Shown here: one piece after another, positions 2,817 to 64,000 of the stretch
Position numbering within the stretch: position 1 is the first letter of the stretch
How the letters are laid out: each line of letters begins with the position of its first letter
DNA from: Phytomonospora endophytica
GTDB taxonomy: Bacteria > Actinomycetota > Actinomycetes > Mycobacteriales > Micromonosporaceae
DNA: 64,000 nt
Assembly (NCBI RefSeq): GCF_014202425.1
Contig: NZ_JACHGT010000018.1
Coordinates: forward strand, 62,001 to 126,000
Direction: 5' to 3'
Notes under the pieces: generated by a model
What the model saw: the letters and a program-made list of their open reading frames with translations, nothing else
Databases searched by the model: none
What the model was told of the DNA's origin: nothing
Position numbers and translations under genes: made by a program

Positions 2817-4187
2817 CTAGCGGTCGGCCACCGAGCAGGAGTTGGCGAGGTCGCCGCCGGCCTGACGCGGCACCGTCCCGTCGGCGGGCGGCCGCAACCT
2901 CCACGTGGCCCAGTCGTCGAGGCGTTCGAAGGCGTCGCGGTAGCAGGGCAGGATAGGGCGCAGCAGGTCCGGATGGGCGTCGTAGAGGCCGTCGACGTGC
3001 GTCCCGTCGGCGATCACGTAGTAGCGGTGTAGGAAGGACCGGTGCTGCCCGGCGATGAGGTCGCGGTAGACGTCGGAGTCGGTGGGCGCCGGCAGCAGCG
3101 TGTCCAGGGTGCCGTGCAGGGTGATCAGCGGCCGCCCGATCCGGCCGGTGAGCTCGATCCTGGCGACGGCCTCGCGCACGGCGGCGGGCCGGGCGAAGTA
3201 GTCGTAGTCGGCGTCGCAGGCCGGTGTGCCGCTGCGGCAGAAGGGCGTGCCCGCCTCGGTGGCACCGTCGAAGCCGGGGTCGAGTTCTTCGCGGTAGATG
3301 CGCTGGGTCAGATCCCAGTAGTAGGTGTAGTGGTAGCCCCACAGGGGTTCCGAGCCCGGAGCGAAGCCCGCGCCGAGGAGTACCTCGCGTGCCTCGACGC
3401 TGCCCGCCTGGTAGTCGGGGTAGGCGCGCAGCGCGGTCGGGAGGTAGGTCAGCAGGTTGGGGCCTTCGGCGCGGAAGAGCGTGCCCTCCCAGTCGACGCC
3501 GCCGTCGTAGAGGTACGCGCGGTTCTCCAGCTGCCAGCGGGTGAGGTAGCCGCCGTTGGAGATCCCGGTCATGTAGGTGCGCAGCGGCGGCAGGCCGTAC
3601 TTCTGCCGCACGACGCGCTTGGCCGCGATCGTCAGCTGCGTGACCCGGTCGTTCCATTCGACGATGGCGTCACCGGGCTCGGTCCCGTCGCGGTAGAAGG
3701 CCGCGCCGGTGTTGCCCTTGTCGGTCGCGGCGAAGGCGTAGCCCTGGGCGACGGCCCAGTCGGAGATGGTCGCGTCGAGCGCGTACTGGCGGCGCACGCC
3801 CGGCGCGCCGGTGACGATGAGCCGGCCGTTCCACCGGTCGGGCAGGCGCAGCACGAACTGGGCGTCGTGGTTCCAGCCGTTGTTGGCGTTCGTCGAGGAG
3901 GTGTCGGGGAAGTACCCGTCGACCTGGACACCGGGCACGCCGCTCGGGTTGACCGTCAGCGTCGAGCTCAGACCGGCCCAGTCGGCGGGAACGGTGTGTC
4001 CACTCGCGACGGTTCCGGCGGTGGTGAGGTCGTCGAGGCAGCTCGCGCGCTGGGTCTCGGCGCCGGGGACGTCGACGGAGCGCATGCGGGCGCAGTGCCC
4101 GCCCTCGGCCCGCGCCGGCAGGGCGAGGCCGGACAGGGCCAGGGCCACGATGGCGAGGCCGGCGCACAGGTGCTTGAGGCGTCTCAT
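2817..4187 (-). CDS. Secreted alpha/beta hydrolase, tannase / hydroxybutyrate-oligomer-hydrolase-like
   Basis: 456 aa with a Sec signal peptide (MRRLKHLCAG, hydrophobic core to about residue 23, ALPARA cleavage region). The nucleophile elbow GISNGG places the catalytic Ser at residue 210; GTLDTLLPA and DGTHVDG near the C-terminus supply plausible Asp and His. Paired cysteines suggest disulfides in the exported enzyme. The overall pattern resembles secreted tannase/feruloyl-esterase or 3-hydroxybutyrate oligomer hydrolase relatives; the exact ester substrate is not determinable. The start at 4187 is chosen because it begins the signal peptide, and a CACGAT -10-like box lies 6 nt upstream. It stands alone between two strong terminators. 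Confidence 0.65.
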   Translation of the reverse strand: MRRLKHLCAGLAIVALALSGLALPARAEGGHCARMRSVDVPGAETQRASCLDDLTTAGTVASGHTVPADWAGLSSTLTVNPSGVPGVQVDGYFPDTSSTNANNGWNHDAQFVLRLPDRWNGRLIVTGAPGVRRQYALDATISDWAVAQGYAFAATDKGNTGAAFYRDGTEPGDAIVEWNDRVTQLTIAAKRVVRQKYGLPPLRTYMTGISNGGYLTRWQLENRAYLYDGGVDWEGTLFRAEGPNLLTYLPTALRAYPDYQAGSVEAREVLLGAGFAPGSEPLWGYHYTYYWDLTQRIYREELDPGFDGATEAGTPFCRSGTPACDADYDYFARPAAVREAVARIELTGRIGRPLITLHGTLDTLLPAPTDSDVYRDLIAGQHRSFLHRYYVIADGTHVDGLYDAHPDLLRPILPCYRDAFERLDDWATWRLRPPADGTVPRQAGGDLANSCSVADR

Positions 4188-8370: not shown

Positions 8371-8537
8371 CCGCCGAACAGTCGGCGGAACCATCCGCCT
8401 TTGTTGGTGCCGGGCTCGTTCGGGTGCCCGGCGCACCACTGGTCGGCGGGGACGGCGGCCTTGACCTGGTCGACGTGCTGGCCGCAGCCCGCCCAGGTCG
8501 TCTTGCCGCAGGTCTTGCAGCCGGTGGGACGGCACAT
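8367..8537 (-). CDS. Small conserved Cys-rich protein (56 aa)
   Basis: ATG at 8537 to TAA at 8367, with AGGAG 8-9 nt upstream. The protein begins MCRPTGCKTCGKTTWAGCGQ and has cysteines at positions 2, 7, 10 and 18 plus one more (WCAGHP) at about 35; the CxxC pairs suggest a small zinc-binding fold. Short proteins with this N-terminal phrase are widespread in actinobacteria but have no known role to my knowledge. The C-terminus ends WFRRLFGG. It sits convergent to the sulfotransferase and downstream of the AhpD-like gene on the same strand, with a 33-bp gap, so the two may be co-transcribed. Confidence 0.75.
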   Translation of the reverse strand: MCRPTGCKTCGKTTWAGCGQHVDQVKAAVPADQWCAGHPNEPGTNKGGWFRRLFGG

Positions 8538-8570
8538 GCGCGTTGCTCCTGTGGGTAGGTCGGTGGTGGA

Positions 8571-8972
8571 TCAGGCCGCGGACTCGCCGGCTTCCAGCGC
8601 GTCGGCGAACTCACAGAACGCACTGTAGGCGCGGGCGCCGTGGATGGTGGCGGGGCCGCCGTGCATGAGGAAGGTGACGCCGATCGCCTCGGCGGCCTCC
8701 TGCCGCGTGGCCCCGGCGCGGGCCGCGGCCTGCGCGTGCGAGGCGATGCAGCCGTCGCAGCCCTCGACGACGCCGATGGCCACGGCGATCAGCTCCTTGG
8801 TCTTGCGCTCCAGCGCGCCGTCGGCGAAGGCCGCCTGGGACAGCGCCCCGAAACCCCGGTAGACCTCGGGAATCGCCCGGCGCAGGTCCCGGTGCAGTGG
8901 GGAGAGGTCGCGCAGGACGGCTCCGCCGTGGTGGTCGTGCCGGCCGGCGGCCGTCTTCGTCGCCTCCGACAT
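8571..8972 (-). CDS. AhpD-like carboxymuconolactone decarboxylase family protein
   Basis: 133 aa, one CMD domain. The signature EGCDGCIASHAQAAARAGAT (residues about 68-87) contains the CxxC and distal His of AhpD-type proteins, which work as alkylhydroperoxidase or thiol-disulfide partners rather than decarboxylases. No signal peptide. The start at 8972 is served by GAAAGGAGA. It is divergent from a CsoR/CstR-type regulator gene, and one of the two ATCCCCC-type palindromes lies next to its ribosome-binding site, so it is the most likely target of that sensor. This context suggests detoxification of reactive sulfur, metal or peroxide stress. Confidence 0.85.
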   Translation of the reverse strand: MSEATKTAAGRHDHHGGAVLRDLSPLHRDLRRAIPEVYRGFGALSQAAFADGALERKTKELIAVAIGVVEGCDGCIASHAQAAARAGATRQEAAEAIGVTFLMHGGPATIHGARAYSAFCEFADALEAGESAA

Positions 8973-8993
8973 GCGAAGGTCTCCTTTCGGGTC

Positions 8994-9009
8994 ATCCCCC
9001 TGGGGGGAT
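8994..9009. promoter_or_regulatory. CsoR/CstR-type operator 1
   Basis: 16-bp near-palindrome ATCCCCCTGGGGGGAT (one mismatch) with the G/C-run architecture of CsoR-family operators, lying just upstream of the AhpD-like gene. Its centre is 31 bp from that of the second copy, about three helical turns. Confidence 0.7.
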
Positions 9010-9024
9010 ATCGAACGTTAACAC

Positions 9025-9040
9025 ATCCCCCCGGGGGGAT
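9025..9040. promoter_or_regulatory. CsoR/CstR-type operator 2
   Basis: Perfect 16-bp palindrome ATCCCCCCGGGGGGAT upstream of the sensor gene at 9089. Two sites in one divergent region fit joint control of the sensor and the AhpD-like gene. Confidence 0.75.
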
Positions 9041-9088
9041 GTAGGATCGGCACACACCCCGACGTTCGCGACCCGATCTGGAGAACGC

Positions 9089-9349
9089 ATGCAGCTGCCC
9101 GCCGAGGACATGAAGGCCGTCATCACCCGCATGAAACGGGCGCACGGACACCTCGCCACCGTCATCCGCATGATGGAGGAGGGCGCCGAGTGCGAGGACG
9201 TGCTGACACAGCTCGCGGCCGTGAACAAGGCGCTGAGCCGCGGGGGGTACACCCTCGTCGCGACCGGCCTCCAGCACTGCCTGGCCAACGGCGGGCTCGA
9301 CGGGGTCGACGCCAAGCGGATGGAGAAGTTGTTCCTGGCGCTGGCTTAG
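9089..9349 (+). CDS. CsoR/FrmR-family sensor with CstR-like cysteine pattern
   Basis: 86 aa, the all-helical CsoR/RcnR/FrmR fold (KAVITRMKRAHGHLATVIRM is helix 1). Copper sensors of this family bind metal with Cys-His-Cys. Here the two cysteines are C35 and C64, with the family's 29-residue spacing, but the His position is Gly60. Two Cys without the His is the pattern of CstR, which senses persulfides by forming a Cys-Cys crosslink. The downstream H63 is not the ligand position. The start at 9089 follows GGAGAACGC. It likely represses itself and the divergent AhpD-like gene through the two G/C-run palindromes. The signal (sulfur, metal or other) is inferred only. Confidence 0.85.
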   Translation: MQLPAEDMKAVITRMKRAHGHLATVIRMMEEGAECEDVLTQLAAVNKALSRGGYTLVATGLQHCLANGGLDGVDAKRMEKLFLALA

Positions 9350-9493: not shown

Positions 9494-10174
9494 GTGAGCT
9501 CCACCCCGCCGCACCTTCCCACGCCCGCCGCCCTGCTCCGCCTCGCCGCCGACCAGGGTCCGCCCATCGACGGTGCCGCCGGCGAGCTCTTCCCGCCGCG
9601 GGTCACCGCGACGGGCACGATGCGGCGGCTCCTCGCCGAGGCCCTGCGGCAGTTCGCGGCGCGTGGCTTCCACGCCGTCTCGGTGCGGGATCTGGCGGGC
9701 GCGGTCGGCATCCATCCGAGCACGGTCTACGCCCACGTCAAGTCCAAAGAGGACCTCCTCGCCGAGCTCATCCGGCACGGCCACGACGAGCACCTCGAAC
9801 GTCTCACCCTCGCTCTCGAAGCGGTTGGTGAGGATCCGCTCGACCGGCTGTCGGCGCTTGTCGGCGCCCACGTGCGTCTGCACGCCGAATACCCGCTCCT
9901 CGCCCGTGTCTGCAGTCGCGAGCTGGAGGCCCTGACCGGCGACAGGCGTCGCCAGGCCTACGCGATGCGCGTGCGCGCCGAGGAGTTCTTCCTCGACGTC
10001 GTCGTCCGCGGCCAGCGCGCCGGGCTGTTCCGCGACTGCGAACCACTGCTCGCGGTCACCGCGCTGGGCTCGATGGGCATCCGCGTCGCCGAGTGGTGGC
10101 GGCCGGAGTTCGGCGTCGGCGTCGACCAGCTCGTCGACACCTACACCGCCTTCGCGCGGCGGATGCTCGCCTGA
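9494..10174 (+). CDS. TetR/AcrR-family regulator of the hydrolase-ligase operon
   Basis: 226 aa. HTH at about residues 40-85 (GFHAVSVRDLAGAVGIHPST followed by VYAHVKSKEDLL), preceded by an unusually long, Pro-rich N-terminal tail of some 35 residues; the C-terminal ligand domain is of the usual size. The GTG at 9494 is chosen because TACACT (9482-9487) ends 6 nt upstream and no ribosome-binding site is seen, indicating a leaderless transcript. A palindrome AACGATCGTT and a promoter lie between this gene and the following operon, which it probably represses; acyl-CoA or a related ligand would be the natural inducer. Confidence 0.8.
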   Translation: MSSTPPHLPTPAALLRLAADQGPPIDGAAGELFPPRVTATGTMRRLLAEALRQFAARGFHAVSVRDLAGAVGIHPSTVYAHVKSKEDLLAELIRHGHDEHLERLTLALEAVGEDPLDRLSALVGAHVRLHAEYPLLARVCSRELEALTGDRRRQAYAMRVRAEEFFLDVVVRGQRAGLFRDCEPLLAVTALGSMGIRVAEWWRPEFGVGVDQLVDTYTAFARRMLA

Positions 10175-57424: not shown

Positions 57425-57454
57425 GGGGGCACGCGGGCCGCCGCGGTCCCCTCA
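57422..57454. terminator. Bidirectional terminator that uses both stop codons
   Basis: TGAGGGG (57422-57428) and CCCCTCA (57448-57454) pair; they contain the TGA of the SseB gene and the reverse-strand stop of the convergent TetR gene. Inner GC-rich pairs strengthen the hairpin. Confidence 0.6.
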
Positions 57455-58045
57455 CGGACGAACCCCCGGCTCCGCCGCGACCGTGATCGCCTCGACGATC
57501 TCGCGGACGGCGGAGGCGTCGGGGAGCGCGCCGAGTTCGCCGGCGAACAGGAGGTGGCCGGTGCCGATCAGGGTCAGGGCGAGTGTGCGGGTGTCGGCGC
57601 CGGGGTTGACGCGGCCGCGGCGGCGTTCGGCGTCGAGGTAGGCGGCGAGGCGGGTACTGGCCTCGCTGAGCAGGGGGATGCCGTGCGGGGTCGTGGTGCG
57701 CAGTCGCGTCCGCAGGTGGTCGCGCGTGATCACGAGGCTGACCAAGCCCAGGTTCACCGGCGTGAAGATGCGCGTGAGCGCCCGGGTCAGGTTGGCGACG
57801 AGCGTGCCGGTCGACTCGTCGAGCGAGTCGATCTCCGCCTCGATTCCGGCGGCGCGGGCGCGCACGAACTCGGCGAGGAAGTCGTCGAAGTCGGCGAAAT
57901 GGCGGTGCAGGACCCCTTTGGCGACTCCGGCCTCCTCGGTCACGGCGCGGCTGGTCAAGGCACCGGCGCCGTCGCGCGTCAGGACCCGCTCGGCGGCGGC
58001 GAGCAGCCGTGCCCGGGCATCGTGCAGGGCGACACCGGTCGGCAA
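57452..58045 (-). CDS. TetR-family regulator (TTG start)
   Basis: 197 aa, a standard TetR length. HTH at residues 8-60 (LHDARARLLAAAERVLTRDG, AVTEEAGVAKGVLHRHFADF). The TTG at 58045 is chosen because AGGAGGA lies 5 nt upstream, whereas the longer in-frame start at 58105 has no site. It follows the FAD monooxygenase gene by 80 bp on the same strand and probably represses the shared promoter at 59734-59762. Confidence 0.82.
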   Translation of the reverse strand: MPTGVALHDARARLLAAAERVLTRDGAGALTSRAVTEEAGVAKGVLHRHFADFDDFLAEFVRARAAGIEAEIDSLDESTGTLVANLTRALTRIFTPVNLGLVSLVITRDHLRTRLRTTTPHGIPLLSEASTRLAAYLDAERRRGRVNPGADTRTLALTLIGTGHLLFAGELGALPDASAVREIVEAITVAAEPGVRP

Positions 58046-58125
58046 GGGTCCTCCTACGGGCAGGTCGAACAGGGCGTGCGGCCCCTCGGATGGGTGCCAG
58101 CCCAATCTACCGCCGCCGCGGTCCC

Positions 58126-59688
58126 CTAGCGGCCGACCAGGCGCTGCAAGTAGTCGGACACCGACCGCTCCTCCCAGGTGCCGCCCGCGAGGGCGACGTA
58201 GCCGTCGGGGCGGATCAGTACGAGCCCGGCACCGTCGACGCCGTAGAGCTCGTGCGCCTCACCGGTCGTGTCGTGGAGCGCTTTCTCGTCGTGGGCGGCG
58301 AGGAGGACGCGGTGAGTGCGAACCTCGCCGTCGTCCACTCGCGGTGCGGGTCCCGAACCGAAGACGAGCAGGGTGAAATGCGGCCCGCGGAACAGGTCGA
58401 ACAGCCGCACCGGCGCACCCGTCGCGAGGTCGACGCAGGTCGCGTCCGGGGCGCGGTCGCCGGCCCGGATCCCGATCGTGTCGTCCAGGTCGTGGGAGAG
58501 GCCGGCACCTCGGTAGGTGATGCTCAGCTGGCTGACGTCGCTGAACGGGTCGCGGCCCTGGAAGGCGCCGATGATGCGGTCGGACACGCGTGCGGTGTCG
58601 GTGCCACTCCAGTGCCTGCCTCTGGCGGTGGTGGAGGCGAGCACGTGCTCGGCGATCGGGAGGCGCTCCTCCTGGTAGGTGTCGAGCAGCGTTTCGGGCG
58701 CGCCGCGCAGGACGCGGCCGAGTTTCCAGCCGAGGTTGTAGGCGTCCTGGACGCCGGTGTTCATTCCCTGACCACCGGCGGGTGTGTGCACATGGGCGGC
58801 GTCTCCCGCCAGGAGGACGCGGCCGTCGCGGTAGCGGTCCACCATGCGGATGTTGACCTGGTAGACCGAGAGGTAGACCGGGTCGAAGAAGCGCACGCCG
58901 GGCAGGCCGACGCGTTCGGCGAAGATGTCGGCGAAGGCCTCGACCGACATCGTCGCCGTGCCGCCGTCCTCGGGCAGAGGCGCGGTGAAGAACCAGGTGT
59001 CGCTCCGGGGCATCGGTGACAGGGTCAGCATCCCGCGTGGGCCGTGCGCCCACATGTGGGTGACGGAGTCGTCGAGGCCTTCGACGCGGAGGTTGCCGAA
59101 CAGCATCCGCTGCCGCTCCCAGGTCTCGCCGAGGAAGCTGATCCCCGCGAGCTTGCGCACGGTGCTGCCGCCGCCGTCGCACCCGACCAGGTACCGCGCC
59201 CGGATCTCCTCGCGACGCCCGGCACGCAGGACGGTCGCGGTGACCCGGCCGCCGTCCTGGACGAGGTCGACGAGTGCCGCATCGAGTTCCACGCGGACCC
59301 CGAGCGATGCGAGCCGATCGCGCAGGACCGCCTCGGTGAACTGCTGCCCCACCATCAGGCTGCCGGGATACGGCGCGCCGGGGACCGAAGGCGCGTCGTA
59401 CATGACCGCCTCGCGCACGACGTGCCCGTCGGCGTCGTAGAAGCGTGTGGACAGCTGCGTCTCGGCGTGCTTGGCCAGATCTTCGAGCACCCCGAGATCC
59501 TCGAACACCTCCTGTGTGCGGGCGCGGACGCCACGGGCCCGCGTACCGACCGCATGGGCGGGCGCCCGATCGACGATCCGCACGCCGACCCCACGCCGCG
59601 CGAGGTCGCACGCCAACGTGAGCCCGACCGGCCCCGCGCCGATGACGACGACGTCGGTGGTGGTGGTGGTGGTGGCTGAAGGTTTCAT
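58126..59688 (-). CDS. Aromatic-ring FAD monooxygenase (PgaE/RdmE-like)
   Basis: 520 aa group A flavin monooxygenase. DVVVIGAGPVGLTLACDLAR (FAD GxGxxG), YLVGCDGGGSTVRKLAG (DG motif), GRVLLAGDAAHVHTPAGGQG (GD motif) and a C-terminal thioredoxin-like domain (LLVFGSGPAPRVDDGEVRTH), the layout of polyketide-tailoring and rifampicin-type hydroxylases. The substrate is probably a polycyclic aromatic compound. Six consecutive ACC codons (Thr6-Thr11 region) form a GGT repeat. A near-consensus promoter with an overlapping palindrome lies upstream. The next gene, in the same direction, is its probable TetR repressor. Confidence 0.87.
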   Translation of the reverse strand: MKPSATTTTTTDVVVIGAGPVGLTLACDLARRGVGVRIVDRAPAHAVGTRARGVRARTQEVFEDLGVLEDLAKHAETQLSTRFYDADGHVVREAVMYDAPSVPGAPYPGSLMVGQQFTEAVLRDRLASLGVRVELDAALVDLVQDGGRVTATVLRAGRREEIRARYLVGCDGGGSTVRKLAGISFLGETWERQRMLFGNLRVEGLDDSVTHMWAHGPRGMLTLSPMPRSDTWFFTAPLPEDGGTATMSVEAFADIFAERVGLPGVRFFDPVYLSVYQVNIRMVDRYRDGRVLLAGDAAHVHTPAGGQGMNTGVQDAYNLGWKLGRVLRGAPETLLDTYQEERLPIAEHVLASTTARGRHWSGTDTARVSDRIIGAFQGRDPFSDVSQLSITYRGAGLSHDLDDTIGIRAGDRAPDATCVDLATGAPVRLFDLFRGPHFTLLVFGSGPAPRVDDGEVRTHRVLLAAHDEKALHDTTGEAHELYGVDGAGLVLIRPDGYVALAGGTWEERSVSDYLQRLVGR

Positions 59689-59809: not shown

Positions 59810-62689
59810 TCAGCCCTCGTCGCCCAAGCCCTCCAGCCGCTCCGCCGCGTCGGCCGCGGCCGATGTGTCGCCGATGGCCTCCGCCACCGCGAGGGCCTCG
59901 CGGAAGGCCCGCGCGGCCATGGCCGGGTCTCCCGCCTTCTGGCGGATGCGGCCCAGGGCGCTGTAGATGACGCAGCGGCGCTGCTGGTCGGCGGTGGCCT
60001 CGACGATGGCCACCGCCTCGGTGATGGCGTCGACGGCCTCGGGGTGGCGTCCTTGACGCGACCGCGCCATGGCGAGGTTGAGCAGCCCGTACTCCTCAAG
60101 GCTGATCGCGCCGAGCCGGCGGGCGGCGTCGACGGCGCGGGTCGCGTGCTCGGCGGCGGCGTCGAGCTCACCCAGTTCGCACAGGCAGTAGCTGACGCAG
60201 GCCAGTGCCGCGGTCGCCGCGGTCTGATCCTCGGCGATGGTGAAGTACTCGTATCCGCTGCGCATGAGCGGCAGCGCCTTGTCGTAGGCACCGAGGTAGG
60301 TGTGGACATTGCCGATGTTGACACCGCACCGCGCCACTTCGCTGTGAATCCCGGCCGCCTCGGCCACCGCGACCGCCCGCTCGAACAGCGCGAGCGCGTC
60401 GTCGAAGTCCCCGGCACGGGCGGCGGCGATGCCCATGCCGCGAAGCACCGCCGCCTGTCCCTGCGAATCCCCGGCCTTCTCATAGAGGCGGGCGGCGTGT
60501 TCGTGATGCGTTCGGGCCTTGTCGAGGCGATAGGCGACGGTGTGCGCCTTGCCCATGCCGGAGGCGACATCGGCTTCGGCCGCCACGTCGCCGAGCCGCG
60601 CCGCCGCGGTCGCGGCGAGATCCAGCACGTCGAGGGCCTGGTCGACGTCACGACGCTGAAGCAGGAAGGAGACCAGTGGGTAGTGCAGGTCGCGAACGTG
60701 TTCGTGCCGGTCGTGCTCGGCCGCGAGCCGGATCGCGGTGATCATGGCCTGCAGGTTCGACGCCAGCCACAGCGCGGCGTCCCCCTGGCCGGCGAACGGC
60801 GGCTGCGGGAACAACGGCGGCGGGCAGGGCGGGGTGGGATCGCGCAAGGGTGCCAGCAGGTCCATGGCGGCGTTGGCGGTGTGCCGGTACCAGGTGAGCA
60901 TCCCGTCCATCGCACCGCGACGGGTGGCCTCGTCGTCGGTCTCGCGCGCGGCCGCCGCGGCGAAGGCCCGCAGCAGATCGTGCAGTCCGTAGCGGTCAGC
61001 ACCCGTCGACGTGACCAGTGAGGCGTTGGCCAGCAGCTCCAGGCCCCGTGCGGCGGCGCTCGGCTCCAGCCCGGTGAGGTTGGCCGCGAAATGGGCCGTC
61101 GGTTCGGCGTTGGGGTGCACGCCGAGCAGGCGGAAGAGGCGCGCCGTCTCCTGCGGAAGATCCCGCAGCGACCAGGCGATCACCCCGTGGACACGGGTGC
61201 GCGGATCACCGGCGTCGAGGACTTCGAAGCGGCGCAACTCGTCGGTGAGTTCTTCGGCGACGGTACTCAACGGCAGACCCGGGCGCCGGGCGGCGCGCTC
61301 GGCGGCCAGACGAAGTGCCAGCGGCAGGCGCGCGCAACCCTGGACGATCGCCTCCACGGCACCGCGTTGACCGGTCAGCCGGTCGCCGCCGACGACCCTG
61401 CCGAGCAGCCCGATCGATTCCTCCACCGTGAGGCGGTCGAGGAGCAGTCTGGTGGCCCCTTCGCCGGCGATGAGGCCGGCCAGCATGTCGCGGCTGGTGA
61501 CCAGGACGCTCGTCTCGGGACACCCCGGCAACAACGGCCGTAGTTGCTCGGAGTCGCGGGCGTTGTCAAGGACGATGAGCATGCGCCTGCCCGCGACCGC
61601 CGTGCGCCACGCGGCCGCGCGCGCGTCGAGGTCGGCGGGAATCTCCGACTCCGGCGTGGCCACGGCCATGAGCAGCAGCCCCAAGGCCCCGGCCGACGGC
61701 ATCGGCTCCGACTCGTCGTAACCGCGCAGGTTGACGTAGATCTGCCCGTCGGGAAACAGGTCCGACCGGGTGTGCGCCCAGTGCAGCGCCAGCGCCGTCT
61801 TACCGACCCCGGGGGAACCGACCACCGCGACGGACGCCGACGGCGTCTCGACCGCCGCGTCGAGTGCGGCGAGGATGTCGGTACGCCCGACGAAGTGCCG
61901 CGGAGCCGCCGGCAACTGCCGCGGAATCCGGTGCGACGGTGGCGGAAGGGCCCCGCGCCCGCGGCGTTCGGCGATCAGATCGGTGTAGGCCGCCTGGAGC
62001 GCGGCTCCGGGTTCCACACCCAGCTCATCGTCGAGGATCCGCCGGAACTCGTGGTACTCGCCGATGGCCTCGCCACGGCGATCGGTGCGGTCGAGGGCGA
62101 GGATCCGCAGACGGCGAAGGCGCTCGTCGACGGGCCGATCGCTGATCAGCTCGGAGAGTTCGCCCAGGACGTCACCGGCGTCGCCGAGGTCGATCGCGGC
62201 GGCGATCCGGTCGCAGCGCGCGGCCAGGAGCTGCTCTTCGAGACCCGGCCCGAAGGCACGGGCCAGTTCGTCGGTCGTGCCCGCGAGAGCCGGCCCACGC
62301 CAGAGGGCGAGTGCCTCACGGAGGAGCCCGGCCGCCGCCTTCACGTCGCCGCGGGCCAGTGCCGAGCGGGCCGCGGCACAGTCGTCCTCGAAGACGTGCG
62401 CGTCGACGGCGGCGCGGGCCGCGTGCAGGACGTAACCGGTGCCTTGGCGGCGGAGCAGCTCAGGGTCCTTGATCAGACCGCGAAGAGCCGAAACCTGTTT
62501 CTGCAGTAACCGCGGAGCCGTGGTCACGGTCTCGCCGGGCCAGACGAGCCGCAGGATCCGTTCGACGGGGACGACGCGTCCGGCGTTGAGGGACAGCAAG
62601 GCCAGCAGCGATCGTGTTCTGCGACCGGTCAAGTGCACTCGTTCACCATGACGATCGAGCTCCACGGTCCCCAGTAGACGGATGTCCAC
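59810..62689 (-). CDS. SARP/AfsR-type regulator (BTAD-NB-ARC-TPR, 959 aa)
   Basis: Residues 1-95 are an OmpR-like winged DNA-binding domain and 95-245 the BTAD bundle (AHVFEDDCAAARSALARGDV, EYHEFRRILDDELGVEPGAA). Residues 265-560 are an NB-ARC switch (VAVVGSPGVGKTALALHWAH, RMLIVLDNARDSEQLRPLL). Residues about 640-950 are TPRs. This is the AfsR/LndI class that activates antibiotic or peptide loci. GTG start at 62689 behind GGGGAGG; the ATG at 62716 is an alternative. Leu61 is TTA. It is divergent from the Cys-rich peptide genes and is their likely activator. Confidence 0.9.
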   Translation of the reverse strand: MDIRLLGTVELDRHGERVHLTGRRTRSLLALLSLNAGRVVPVERILRLVWPGETVTTAPRLLQKQVSALRGLIKDPELLRRQGTGYVLHAARAAVDAHVFEDDCAAARSALARGDVKAAAGLLREALALWRGPALAGTTDELARAFGPGLEEQLLAARCDRIAAAIDLGDAGDVLGELSELISDRPVDERLRRLRILALDRTDRRGEAIGEYHEFRRILDDELGVEPGAALQAAYTDLIAERRGRGALPPPSHRIPRQLPAAPRHFVGRTDILAALDAAVETPSASVAVVGSPGVGKTALALHWAHTRSDLFPDGQIYVNLRGYDESEPMPSAGALGLLLMAVATPESEIPADLDARAAAWRTAVAGRRMLIVLDNARDSEQLRPLLPGCPETSVLVTSRDMLAGLIAGEGATRLLLDRLTVEESIGLLGRVVGGDRLTGQRGAVEAIVQGCARLPLALRLAAERAARRPGLPLSTVAEELTDELRRFEVLDAGDPRTRVHGVIAWSLRDLPQETARLFRLLGVHPNAEPTAHFAANLTGLEPSAAARGLELLANASLVTSTGADRYGLHDLLRAFAAAAARETDDEATRRGAMDGMLTWYRHTANAAMDLLAPLRDPTPPCPPPLFPQPPFAGQGDAALWLASNLQAMITAIRLAAEHDRHEHVRDLHYPLVSFLLQRRDVDQALDVLDLAATAAARLGDVAAEADVASGMGKAHTVAYRLDKARTHHEHAARLYEKAGDSQGQAAVLRGMGIAAARAGDFDDALALFERAVAVAEAAGIHSEVARCGVNIGNVHTYLGAYDKALPLMRSGYEYFTIAEDQTAATAALACVSYCLCELGELDAAAEHATRAVDAARRLGAISLEEYGLLNLAMARSRQGRHPEAVDAITEAVAIVEATADQQRRCVIYSALGRIRQKAGDPAMAARAFREALAVAEAIGDTSAAADAAERLEGLGDEG

Positions 62690-62736
62690 GCGCCCCTCCC
62701 CACGGCGGCCGGGCATACCGCCGGCGACCGATTCTA

Positions 62737-62771
62737 CAAGATCGAGACATTTCCGGGAACAAGATCACGAC
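62737..62771 (+). repeat. Direct repeat in the SARP-peptide intergenic region
   Basis: CAAGATCGAGAC (62737-62748) and CAAGATCACGAC (62760-62771) match at 10 of 12 positions and start 23 bp apart. SARP proteins bind direct repeats on one helix face near -35 regions, so these could be the activator's sites. The 23-bp spacing is not the usual 11 or 22, so confidence is limited. Confidence 0.35.
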
Positions 62772-62828: not shown

Positions 62829-62999
62829 GTGAAGTTCTTCACCCGTCTCGCCGACGCGGCGCTCCGCCGCGTCGCTCCGGAAGTAGAGGCCGAGGCCGCC
62901 TGCATCCTCATCCAGGTGTACTCGCCGAACTGTGACGGCTGGTGCGTCTGGACCTACGACAACTGCGCGAACAAGTACGGCCGTTGCCCGTGGGCGTGA
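62829..62999 (+). CDS. Cys-rich precursor peptide A (56 aa)
   Basis: GTG at 62829 behind GGGAG, TGA at 62999. A 24-residue leader with no Cys (MKFFTRLADAALRRVAPEVE then AEAA) is followed by a core with cysteines at 25, 35, 39, 46 and 53 and the phrase CVWTYDNC. Leader and core match peptide B in register: P17, V19, E22-A23-A24-C25-I26-x-I28 and C-V-x2-Y-D-N-C. A-x-A lies before A24, a signal-peptidase-I-type site. The leader is not hydrophobic enough for a classical Sec signal. Odd Cys number (5). Homologues not recognised. Confidence 0.75.
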   Translation: MKFFTRLADAALRRVAPEVEAEAACILIQVYSPNCDGWCVWTYDNCANKYGRCPWA

Positions 63000-63004
63000 A
63001 GCGG

Positions 63005-63178
63005 ATGAGCATCCTGAGCTCCACAGCCGAGCGAATCCTCTCGCTGATCTCCCCGGCGGTCACCGTCGAGGCCGCCTGCATCGTCATCGATCACTACTGC
63101 TGGTGCACCGCGACGTGCGTCAACGAGTGCGTGACCGTGTACGACAACTGCCCGACCCGCAGGGTCTGCGTCAAATAG
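63005..63178 (+). CDS. Cys-rich precursor peptide B (57 aa)
   Basis: ATG at 63005; the GTG at 62996 overlapping the first peptide's stop is the alternative, but 63005 makes both leaders exactly 24 residues and puts P17, V19 and EAAC25 in the same positions. Leader MSILSSTAERILSLISPAVT then VEAA; core has cysteines at 25, 32, 34, 38, 42, 49 and 55, with CVTVYDNC. V-E-A precedes A24, matching a -3/-1 signal-peptidase site. Seven cysteines, odd as in peptide A. The 5-nt gap between the genes couples their translation. A strong hairpin follows. Confidence 0.75.
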   Translation: MSILSSTAERILSLISPAVTVEAACIVIDHYCWCTATCVNECVTVYDNCPTRRVCVK

Positions 63179-63187
63179 CCCGGTCCA

Positions 63188-63218
63188 GGGGCGCCCGCGC
63201 TCGATGCGCGGGCGCCCC
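63188..63218 (+). terminator. Strong terminator/attenuator after the peptide genes
   Basis: Perfect inverted repeat: GGGGCGCCCGCGC (63188-63200), loop TCGAT, GCGCGGGCGCCCC (63206-63218), 9 bp after the peptide B stop and 34 bp before the thioredoxin-like gene. Partial read-through would leave peptide mRNA in excess over the processing genes. Confidence 0.85.
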
Positions 63219-63252
63219 GCACCGTCCACACCCGACTCTGAGGGGTCCCGCC

Positions 63253-63765
63253 ATGTACGTCTACGCCGCCCTCGCCACTCTGCTCACGGTCTTCTGCGTG
63301 GCGAACCTGCTGCTCATGCTGGCCGTCGTACGCCGGTTGCGTTCCCACGAATCGAGGCTGGCGGCGAACTCGCGCCCGCTGACCCTGCCGACCGGCACCC
63401 GCATCGCCCCCTTCACGACGACCACCGTGGACGGCGATCGGATCTCGGCGGCCGGCCTCGCCGACGGCACCCTCATCGGCGTGTTCTCGCCAGCCTGCGA
63501 GCCCTGCCACGCACAGTTGCCCGCCTTCGTCGAACACTCCCGAAGCTCCCCGGCCCTCGCCGTCGTCCTCAGCGACGGCGACGAGGCCACCGACATGGTC
63601 GCCGCACTCGCCGAGGCCTGCCCTCTGGTCGTCGAAGGACACGGCGGAGCGGTGAGCACCGCGCTCGGCGTGCAGGGCACACCCGCCCTGGTGATCGTCG
63701 CTCAAGGCGCCATCGTCGCCACCGAGTCCGCCGTCTCCCGGCTTCCTCAGCCGGCACGCACATGA
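63253..63765 (+). CDS. Membrane-anchored thioredoxin-like (TlpA/MauD-type) protein
   Basis: 170 aa. N-terminal transmembrane anchor (residues about 3-24, ALATLLTVFCVANLLLMLAV), then a thioredoxin-like domain with the redox motif SPACEPCHAQLPAF (CxxC) and the cis-Pro region VQGTPALVIV. TlpA/MauD-type proteins reduce or isomerise disulfides outside the membrane; MauD assists disulfide-rich subunits. AGGGG precedes the ATG at 63253. Its stop overlaps the next start by 4 bases (ATGA), pairing it with the signal peptidase. Confidence 0.85.
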   Translation: MYVYAALATLLTVFCVANLLLMLAVVRRLRSHESRLAANSRPLTLPTGTRIAPFTTTTVDGDRISAAGLADGTLIGVFSPACEPCHAQLPAFVEHSRSSPALAVVLSDGDEATDMVAALAEACPLVVEGHGGAVSTALGVQGTPALVIVAQGAIVATESAVSRLPQPART

Positions 63766-64000
63766 TCACCACCGCCGCGGTCGTCACCGCCATCGCCCTT
63801 CTCACCGCCGGCTGGGTCCGGCTGCGCTACCTCGTCACCCGCGTCGACGGCCCGAGCATGCAGCCCACCTTCCACGACGGCGACCGCCTCCTCGCCCGCC
63901 GGGGAAACCACCACGCCGACCGGGGACAGGTCGTCGTCTTCCGCAACCCCCGCCCCGTCGGAGTACCCGGCTCATCGTCAGGGCCACTGCTGCTCAAACG
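63762..64000 (+). CDS. Type I signal peptidase (S26), cut by the window end
   Basis: 79 codons visible. An N-terminal membrane segment (TTAAVVTAIALLTAGWV) is followed by the catalytic Ser box RVDGPSMQPTFHDGDRLLAR, where Ser is the S-M-x-P nucleophile; the catalytic Lys should lie beyond the window. Because it is coupled to the thioredoxin-like gene, it probably cleaves the two peptide leaders at the A-x-A / V-x-A sites after residue 23. The complete locus (transporter, further peptides) lies outside. Confidence 0.85.
   Translation, partial: MITTAAVVTAIALLTAGWVRLRYLVTRVDGPSMQPTFHDGDRLLARRGNHHADRGQVVVFRNPRPVGVPGSSSGPLLLK

Follow-up and report, generated by a model that had tools for sequence, protein, structure and literature searches.

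Peptides A and B, encoded side by side at the end of a 64,000-nucleotide stretch of the Phytomonospora endophytica genome (NCBI RefSeq assembly GCF_014202425.1, contig NZ_JACHGT010000018.1, positions 62,001 to 126,000 of the forward strand; hereafter the window, whose numbering is used throughout), are most probably precursors of secreted, disulfide-bonded mini-proteins that are exported, cut and oxidised by a machine acting partly in trans, a reading to which we assign a probability of about 0.7. Several of its components can be read directly from the sequence: the peptide family, its leader, the gene cassette that accompanies it, its expansion, the rule of even cysteine numbers and the putative cut site. 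Gene association and motifs suggest the others, namely the order of export, the cleavage, the disulfide pattern, a link between A and B, the action in trans and the function.

The peptide pair and its operon

A first-pass annotation of the window had described two peptides of 56 and 57 residues, followed by a redox gene and a signal peptidase gene and preceded by a divergent regulator. All of these were found at the positions given there, and A and B are real open reading frames of the expected sizes:

62829-62999, + strand: precursor peptide A, GTG start, 56 residues (open reading frame)
63005-63178, + strand: precursor peptide B, ATG start, 57 residues (open reading frame)
63253-63765, + strand: MauD/TlpA-like thiol:disulfide protein, membrane-anchored, CEPC motif, 170 residues (alignment and Pfam)
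63762-64000, + strand: S26 signal peptidase I family protein, gene cut by the window end (Pfam PF10502)
59810-62716, - strand: SARP/AfsR-type regulator, 968 residues, divergent from A (Pfam BTAD, 2.2e-36)

The MauD and S26 genes form the 4-base-overlap pair that had been noted, and both peptides show the register P17, V19, E22-A23-A24-C25-I26-x-I28 and share the motif CVxxYDNC. A carries five cysteines (positions 25, 35, 39, 46 and 53) and B seven (25, 32, 34, 38, 42, 49 and 55). The S26 cut predicted after A23 would leave a 23-residue leader and cores of 33 (A24-A56) and 34 residues (A24-K57). Scans of Pfam and NCBIfam gave no family model for either peptide. A alone gave a match to a viral esterase model, which is below threshold (E 0.062) and was disregarded, and the best hits of A and B in a search of solved structures (E 0.27 and 0.033) are not credible.

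The Pfam matches of the MauD-like protein of the window lie below the curated cut-offs (Redoxin, E 2.1e-4; AhpC-TSA, 0.004); its counterpart at locus L098 passes AhpC-TSA (39.3 bits vs a cut-off of 26), and the window protein aligns over its full length with 13 other members of the family, both motif cysteines being invariant in all 14. The S26 protein matches PF10502 at 3.1e-26. Reading the contig beyond position 64000, as the first-pass annotation had proposed, completes it to 137 residues (63762-64175, which is 1763-2176 of L005, a stretch of the same contig that runs past the window) and reveals that the operon goes on into a carrier-thioesterase gene and then an adenylation gene, both considered below.

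A leader-defined family and its cassette

When 61 genomes were first searched with B, relatives turned up in the genome of a related genus (G007; the window's own genome is G000), and iterated searches led to a leader consensus, M-x5-LADRhLxRh(A/V)P-x3-AxAA-C, in which positions 9-10 or thereabouts are, read by eye, charged and usually D9 then R10. A profile of this leader (26 columns, 25 rows) matches A and B in their own genome at E=4.0e-10 and E=1.7e-9, both peptides being rows of the profile; an earlier profile of 66 seeds matched A, and B was not in its match list at E<=0.05. Clustering of the neighbours of 46 precursors at 37 loci returned a recurring set of genes for an ABC exporter, MauD, S26, MauE and SARP proteins. 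Representatives of the exporter carry PF00664 and PF00005, with no C39 peptidase domain in the Pfam scan, and MauE corresponds to PF07291.

The association was then measured from the side of the redox gene. A genome scan with a six-sequence MauD alignment yielded 79 loci, all actinobacterial except an off-target from Bacteroidetes (L203). Within 7 kb of MauD, a precursor was found at 71 of them (66-seed profile, E<=0.1), an ABC gene at 73, S26 at 71, MauE at 61 and SARP at 40; precursor, ABC and S26 occur together at 65, and with MauE in addition at 53. The profile search suggested by the first-pass annotation finds the same leader beside MauD, ABC and S26 genes in other genomes, a recurrence that goes beyond chance, and the link of homologues to S26 and thioredoxin-like genes, on which that annotation had staked its proposal, holds at the cassette loci. 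Since as many as 24 of the 78 MauD loci that were scanned supplied seeds, the 71 of 79 is not fully independent of the profile. Of the leader matches at E<=0.05, 73 fall in the 0.54 Mb that lie within 3.5 kb of MauD and 3 in the remaining 0.83 Mb. These three are Catellatospora loci (L129-L131) in which the precursor adjoins an S26 gene and MauD is 5.7 kb away. Leader matches occur in Streptomyces, Nonomuraea, Amycolatopsis, Lentzea, Nocardia, Actinoplanes, Longispora and Catellatospora, those of Amycolatopsis and Nocardia being weak (E 0.008-0.06) but at the usual place. A full-length profile run on 250 family genomes gave matches in 60 at E<=0.01, checked in part, and a single-precursor scan matched 590 stretches with none confirmed.

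The cut site had been foreseen as an A-x-A or V-x-A motif of S26 type. Of the 152 precursor clusters, 149 have a loose form of it, A/V-x-A/S/G in the 12 residues that follow the leader proline, which fits that expectation for a pattern that is permissive and was counted without a control. Read by eye, the amphipathic 23-residue leader seems unlike a Sec signal, since its middle, where a hydrophobic h-region would be expected, holds a charged residue.

Cysteine parity and variable cores

Core cysteine numbers in the 152 clusters (70% identity) are even in 145 and odd in seven, one of the latter (L100, three cysteines) being a counting artefact, as the entire peptide has four; when 107 clusters had been counted earlier, 102 were even and 5 odd. 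The pooled set excludes Cys-free matches and takes expansion peptides only if they have 4 Cys or more and are no longer than 110 residues. Among other small open reading frames of the same loci (45-90 residues, 4-12 Cys), the number is even in 940 of 1478, so that the parity excess has a p of about 1e-20. The regular expression behind the 66-leader seed profile demanded at least three core cysteines, a threshold that introduces no bias toward even numbers. Because disulfide pairing demands an even count, the cores are very probably disulfide-bonded. Apart from their cysteines, which number at least eight in 70 of the 152 clusters, the cores are near background, with a mean pairwise identity of 0.31, compared with 0.27 once the cores are shuffled and 0.40 among leaders.

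Against this rule, the two neighbours A and B are both odd. The idea of the first-pass annotation that an intermolecular disulfide joins them has been strengthened by the rarity of odd counts in the family, which makes two adjoining odd peptides unlikely by chance and favours an interchain bridge. In an alignment of A and B with four Actinoplanes relatives (two from L151, one each from L174 and L176), four cysteines are common to all six rows; A has one cysteine beyond these and B three, and a single interchain bond would therefore pair every cysteine. Judged from these counts, A and B would most likely be released joined to each other, as a covalent heterodimer containing six disulfides in all.

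A scattered repertoire and a central machine

The leader-only profile found 32 matches in the window's own genome (31 kept) and 51 in G007 (50 kept), all translated individually; search counts, mostly uninspected, were 21 in G106, 13 in G004 and few in G261 (4), G035 (3) and G257 (2). Two of the 83 matches in the first two genomes were dropped before counting (G000:C5:33558, with no cysteine, and G007:C1:303988, with one), leaving 81; one of those kept in G007 is a doubtful long frame that lacks a proper start (C3:985016, 11 Cys), and at least 18 of the 83 are themselves profile rows. Cysteine numbers are even in 28 of the 31 of P. endophytica, the others being A, B and G000:C18:54266. The two odd totals in G007 are the doubtful frame and a peptide with seven cysteines, one of which lies in the leader (core six). 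Reciprocal best pairs between the two genomes number twenty, and in six of them the cores are at least 60% identical, so that the repertoire is partly conserved between the genera.

Within the fetched stretches (about 8-20 kb), 76 of the 81 precursors have no MauD, S26, MauE or exporter, the last being counted as local from 250 bits. Exporter matches at E<=1e-60 number one in G007 and two each in G004 and G106 (the second much weaker than the first, which is strong), and MauD matches at E<=1e-6 three in G000, two in G007, one in G004 and two in G106. P. endophytica has two cassette-type exporters elsewhere in its genome (543 and 456 bits): the one on C11 adjoins an S26 gene, and the one on C2 sits in a SARP-S26-ABC-MauD cassette with no MauE match. 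The most likely arrangement, from the distribution of these genes, is an export, cleavage and oxidation machine that would serve a conotoxin-like repertoire in trans. The disproportion between few exporters and many dispersed precursors makes leader recognition in trans directly testable.

Some further loci were observed in passing. The odd peptide C18:54266 (L288), a 5-Cys member of the leader family, lies about 7.7 kb before the window. The C2 cassette adjoins an 8-Cys peptide, found by eye, with an aberrant leader and outside the 31. At L102 of G004 (8501-9150) there are three tandem, near-alike precursors and at L112 of G089 (9571-9732) one, with synteny kept and no cassette genes. At L038 and L082, where synteny of the precursors is shared by G007 and G000, the neighbours are a pair of ABC half-transporters of a different type and genes that resemble glycoside hydrolases, both read by eye.

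A working scheme can be proposed in which SARP would turn the operon on and the leader would direct the precursor to an MsbA-type ABC exporter without a peptidase domain. A membrane S26 peptidase on the outer face would then cut after A/V-x-A23 and free the core (33 and 34 residues for A and B), while MauD, with MauE where present, would hold the cysteines in the proper redox state for disulfides to form. In P. endophytica the machine would be divided among several loci and handle the 31 precursors in trans, and the A-B product would probably act on other cells, in antagonism, or as a signal. Taken jointly, the claim that some actinobacteria keep a combinatorial arsenal of conotoxin-like kind, with dozens of disulfide-rich, hypervariable peptides dispersed along the chromosome under one leader, a central exporter/S26/MauD machine acting in trans, an A-B heterodimer and possible capping by an adenylation domain and a Cys-thioesterase is tentative, and we place it somewhat short of an even chance.

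Several observations weigh against the precursor reading. The case for leader-exporter binding, S26 cutting and disulfides comes from gene association and motifs. Gene searches of the neighbourhood found neither an ABC exporter nor MauE next to A and B, and export in trans is therefore assumed. Eight of the 79 MauD loci have no precursor (L132, L138, L144, L169, L194, L199, L201 and L203), and G035 has five exporter matches for its three leader matches, so that the relation between exporter and precursor numbers seen in G007 is not general; this misfit is taken into account in the probability given at the outset. The leader-only search of the whole class matched in 12 of 296 genomes, own genome included, which reflects either a patchy spread or a profile that misses divergent leaders such as those from MauD loci. 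An AlphaFold model of B, a leader helix with three strands, is weak (predicted local distance difference test score, pLDDT, 68.5). We recognised no immunity gene or target, and no systematic search for one was made, which leaves antagonism a guess. Odd members with no obvious partner also occur (L136, L146, L200 and G000:C18:54266).

Alternative explanations

These unpartnered peptides bear on the bridge between A and B, since A and B might instead be separate products, each with one cysteine free or carrying a small adduct. The peptide C18:54266 suggests that an odd count can arise simply, as its G007 orthologue keeps a sixth cysteine and one has apparently been lost in P. endophytica. Yet odd counts are rare, both operon neighbours are odd, the G007 orthologue of A has six cysteines, and the four Actinoplanes relatives have four cysteines each, including the adjoining related pair of Actinoplanes flavus (L151) with 4 and 4, so that separate products seem rather unlikely, if by no means outlandish. 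It is much harder to see the cores as metal-binding, similar to a metallothionein or metallochaperone, with MauD keeping thiols reduced before metal loading. The cores are Cys-rich, MauD-like proteins are capable of acting as reductants, and the S26 protein scores 45.4 bits against a model of the nickel superoxide dismutase maturation protease, below the cut-off of 63.25; but metal clusters do not require the strict parity observed (145 of 152 even), and the exporter and S26 genes point outside the cell, which makes this explanation improbable. A lanthipeptide or another thioether member of the ribosomally synthesised and post-translationally modified peptides (RiPPs) would account for a leader joined to a variable Cys core and for SARP and ABC exporter genes, as in actinobacterial RiPP clusters. 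The cassette carries redox genes instead of thioether enzymes, and the scanned proteins of the window operon and of the cassettes have no lanthionine synthetase, YcaO or radical SAM domain, unlinked enzymes not having been searched for; the seven scanned for the window (A, B, MauD, S26, carrier-thioesterase, adenylation protein and SARP) include no lanthionine synthetase domain. We consider a thioether peptide highly improbable.

The genes past the window raise another alternative, a hybrid of RiPP and nonribosomal peptide synthetase (NRPS) in which the adenylation and carrier-thioesterase (PCP-TE) proteins would load an amino acid or hydroxy acid that a Cys-type thioesterase transfers to the peptides. 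The two genes occupy 2178-4701 of L005, or 64177-66700 in window numbering:

from L005 2178: carrier-thioesterase PCP-TE (PF00550 and PF00975), 346 residues
to L005 4701: stand-alone amino-acid adenylation protein, 496 residues, overlapping PCP-TE at 3211-3218

They are tightly packed behind S26, with one base between the S26 stop and the PCP-TE start and an 8-base overlap between PCP-TE and the adenylation gene. The nucleophile motif of the thioesterase is GLCDG, and G-x-C-x-G, with cysteine in the nucleophile position, is found in 9 of 10 relatives. In Longispora albida (L097/L128), too, such a pair lies near a precursor and MauD. But matches to both proteins occur at only 2 of the 79 MauD loci, at one of which (L131) they fall inside one large NRPS-like gene. 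In at least six other genomes the pair has no detected precursor and its neighbours are MFS, ATP-grasp, PvcA-like or pantothenate-like genes, and at L250 of G007 a PCP-TE gene stands beside a SARP gene 51% identical to that of the window, again with no precursor detected. Since the pair occurs elsewhere without precursors, it may be a small-molecule module in its own right that shares the SARP with the peptides, and peptide loading is an unlikely explanation; the two proteins may be peptide modifiers or a co-regulated small-molecule module.

Side features of the locus

Two non-coding features lie within the operon region:

63188-63218, + strand: perfect 13-bp stem with a 5-nt loop, between B and the MauD gene (RNA folding vs shuffles)
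62736-62771: two 13-nt direct repeats (ACAAGATC[GA][AC]GAC), spacing 23 bp, in the SARP/peptide A intergenic region

The stem folds at -45.6 kcal/mol over 77 nt (z -3.19; among 200 shuffled sequences, 1 did equally well) and possibly serves as an attenuator or mRNA stabiliser, reducing downstream expression. The repeats upstream of A are a possible SARP operator, short repeats in two copies being often due to chance. On the other side of SARP, a 520-residue protein (58126-59688, - strand), with an N-terminal motif that we take to be FAD-monooxygenase-like, is adjoined by a TetR-like gene (57452-58105, by eye), and at the far end of the operon a transporter-like gene, also read by eye, is convergent with the adenylation gene. 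In other genomes, proteins of about 830 residues lie beside pairs of adenylation and PCP-TE genes (L128 461-2938, L251 4574-7099, and L252 from 11312); that of L128 has a Pfam PvcA/DIT1 domain of isonitrile-synthase type and in Longispora albida adjoins the peptide locus. The PCP-TE genes of L249 (which also has an adenylation gene) and L253 are accompanied by PanB-, PanD-, CoaX- and aminotransferase-like genes, by eye. An MFS gene and one for a protein with Pfam NAD_binding_9 are present too, and the whole is perhaps a small-molecule cluster of pantothenate type.

Comparison with known systems

With members in Streptomyces, Nonomuraea, Amycolatopsis, Lentzea, Actinoplanes and others, and about 50 in one genome, the family, probably stabilised by disulfides, is a large unexplored source of stable mini-proteins, and the combination of leader, cassette and even-Cys rule is a simple means to find new ones. 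A conserved leader, a hypervariable disulfide-rich core and many paralogues per genome are also typical of conotoxins and plant nodule-specific cysteine-rich (NCR) peptides. Those are secreted by the eukaryotic Sec and endoplasmic reticulum route, while here an ABC exporter, S26 and MauD/MauE are present, and we claim no homology. An ABC exporter lacking a peptidase domain together with an extracytoplasmic leader protease recalls the NisT/NisP export of bacteriocins; here the protease is of the S26 and not the subtilisin-like type, and no lanthionine enzyme was seen in the scanned proteins.

With methylamine dehydrogenase maturation by MauD and MauE, as cited in PMC7794033, the family shares homologues of these two proteins beside a small Cys-rich protein, but here the putative substrates are leader peptides encoded beside ABC exporter and S26 genes. 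The closest precedent is the decRiPPter study itself (PMC7794033, PLoS Biol 2020), which, in the parts consulted, describes three candidate RiPP families of Streptomyces with mauE, one of them also with mauD. Their predicted precursors have at least 8 Cys each, and the clusters were selected for a transporter, a peptidase and a regulator; a role of mauE/mauD in precursor modification was suggested, the families are given as uncharacterised, and S. viridosporus T7A is among the genomes named. Compared by description, these are likely the present family. The L170 peptide of S. viridosporus NRRL 2414, with its 10 Cys, begins with the leader described here (E 9.9e-6), and a regulator and a peptidase (SARP and S26) are found at the window locus as well. 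No mauE lies next to A and B, though it does at 61 of the 79 related loci, and A (5) and B (7) have fewer cysteines than the eight of the decRiPPter precursors. The suggestion that the family is undescribed therefore stands as regards Pfam and NCBIfam, where it has no model, and as regards the open-licence literature, in which we found no characterisation of the leader-defined family, but not as regards the Cys-rich mauE/mauD candidates already flagged in Streptomyces in 2020. Beyond what the consulted text of that study describes, the present analysis adds the common leader, a putative role of S26, cysteine parity, repertoires probably served in trans, the spread outside Streptomyces and the variant with adenylation and PCP-TE genes.
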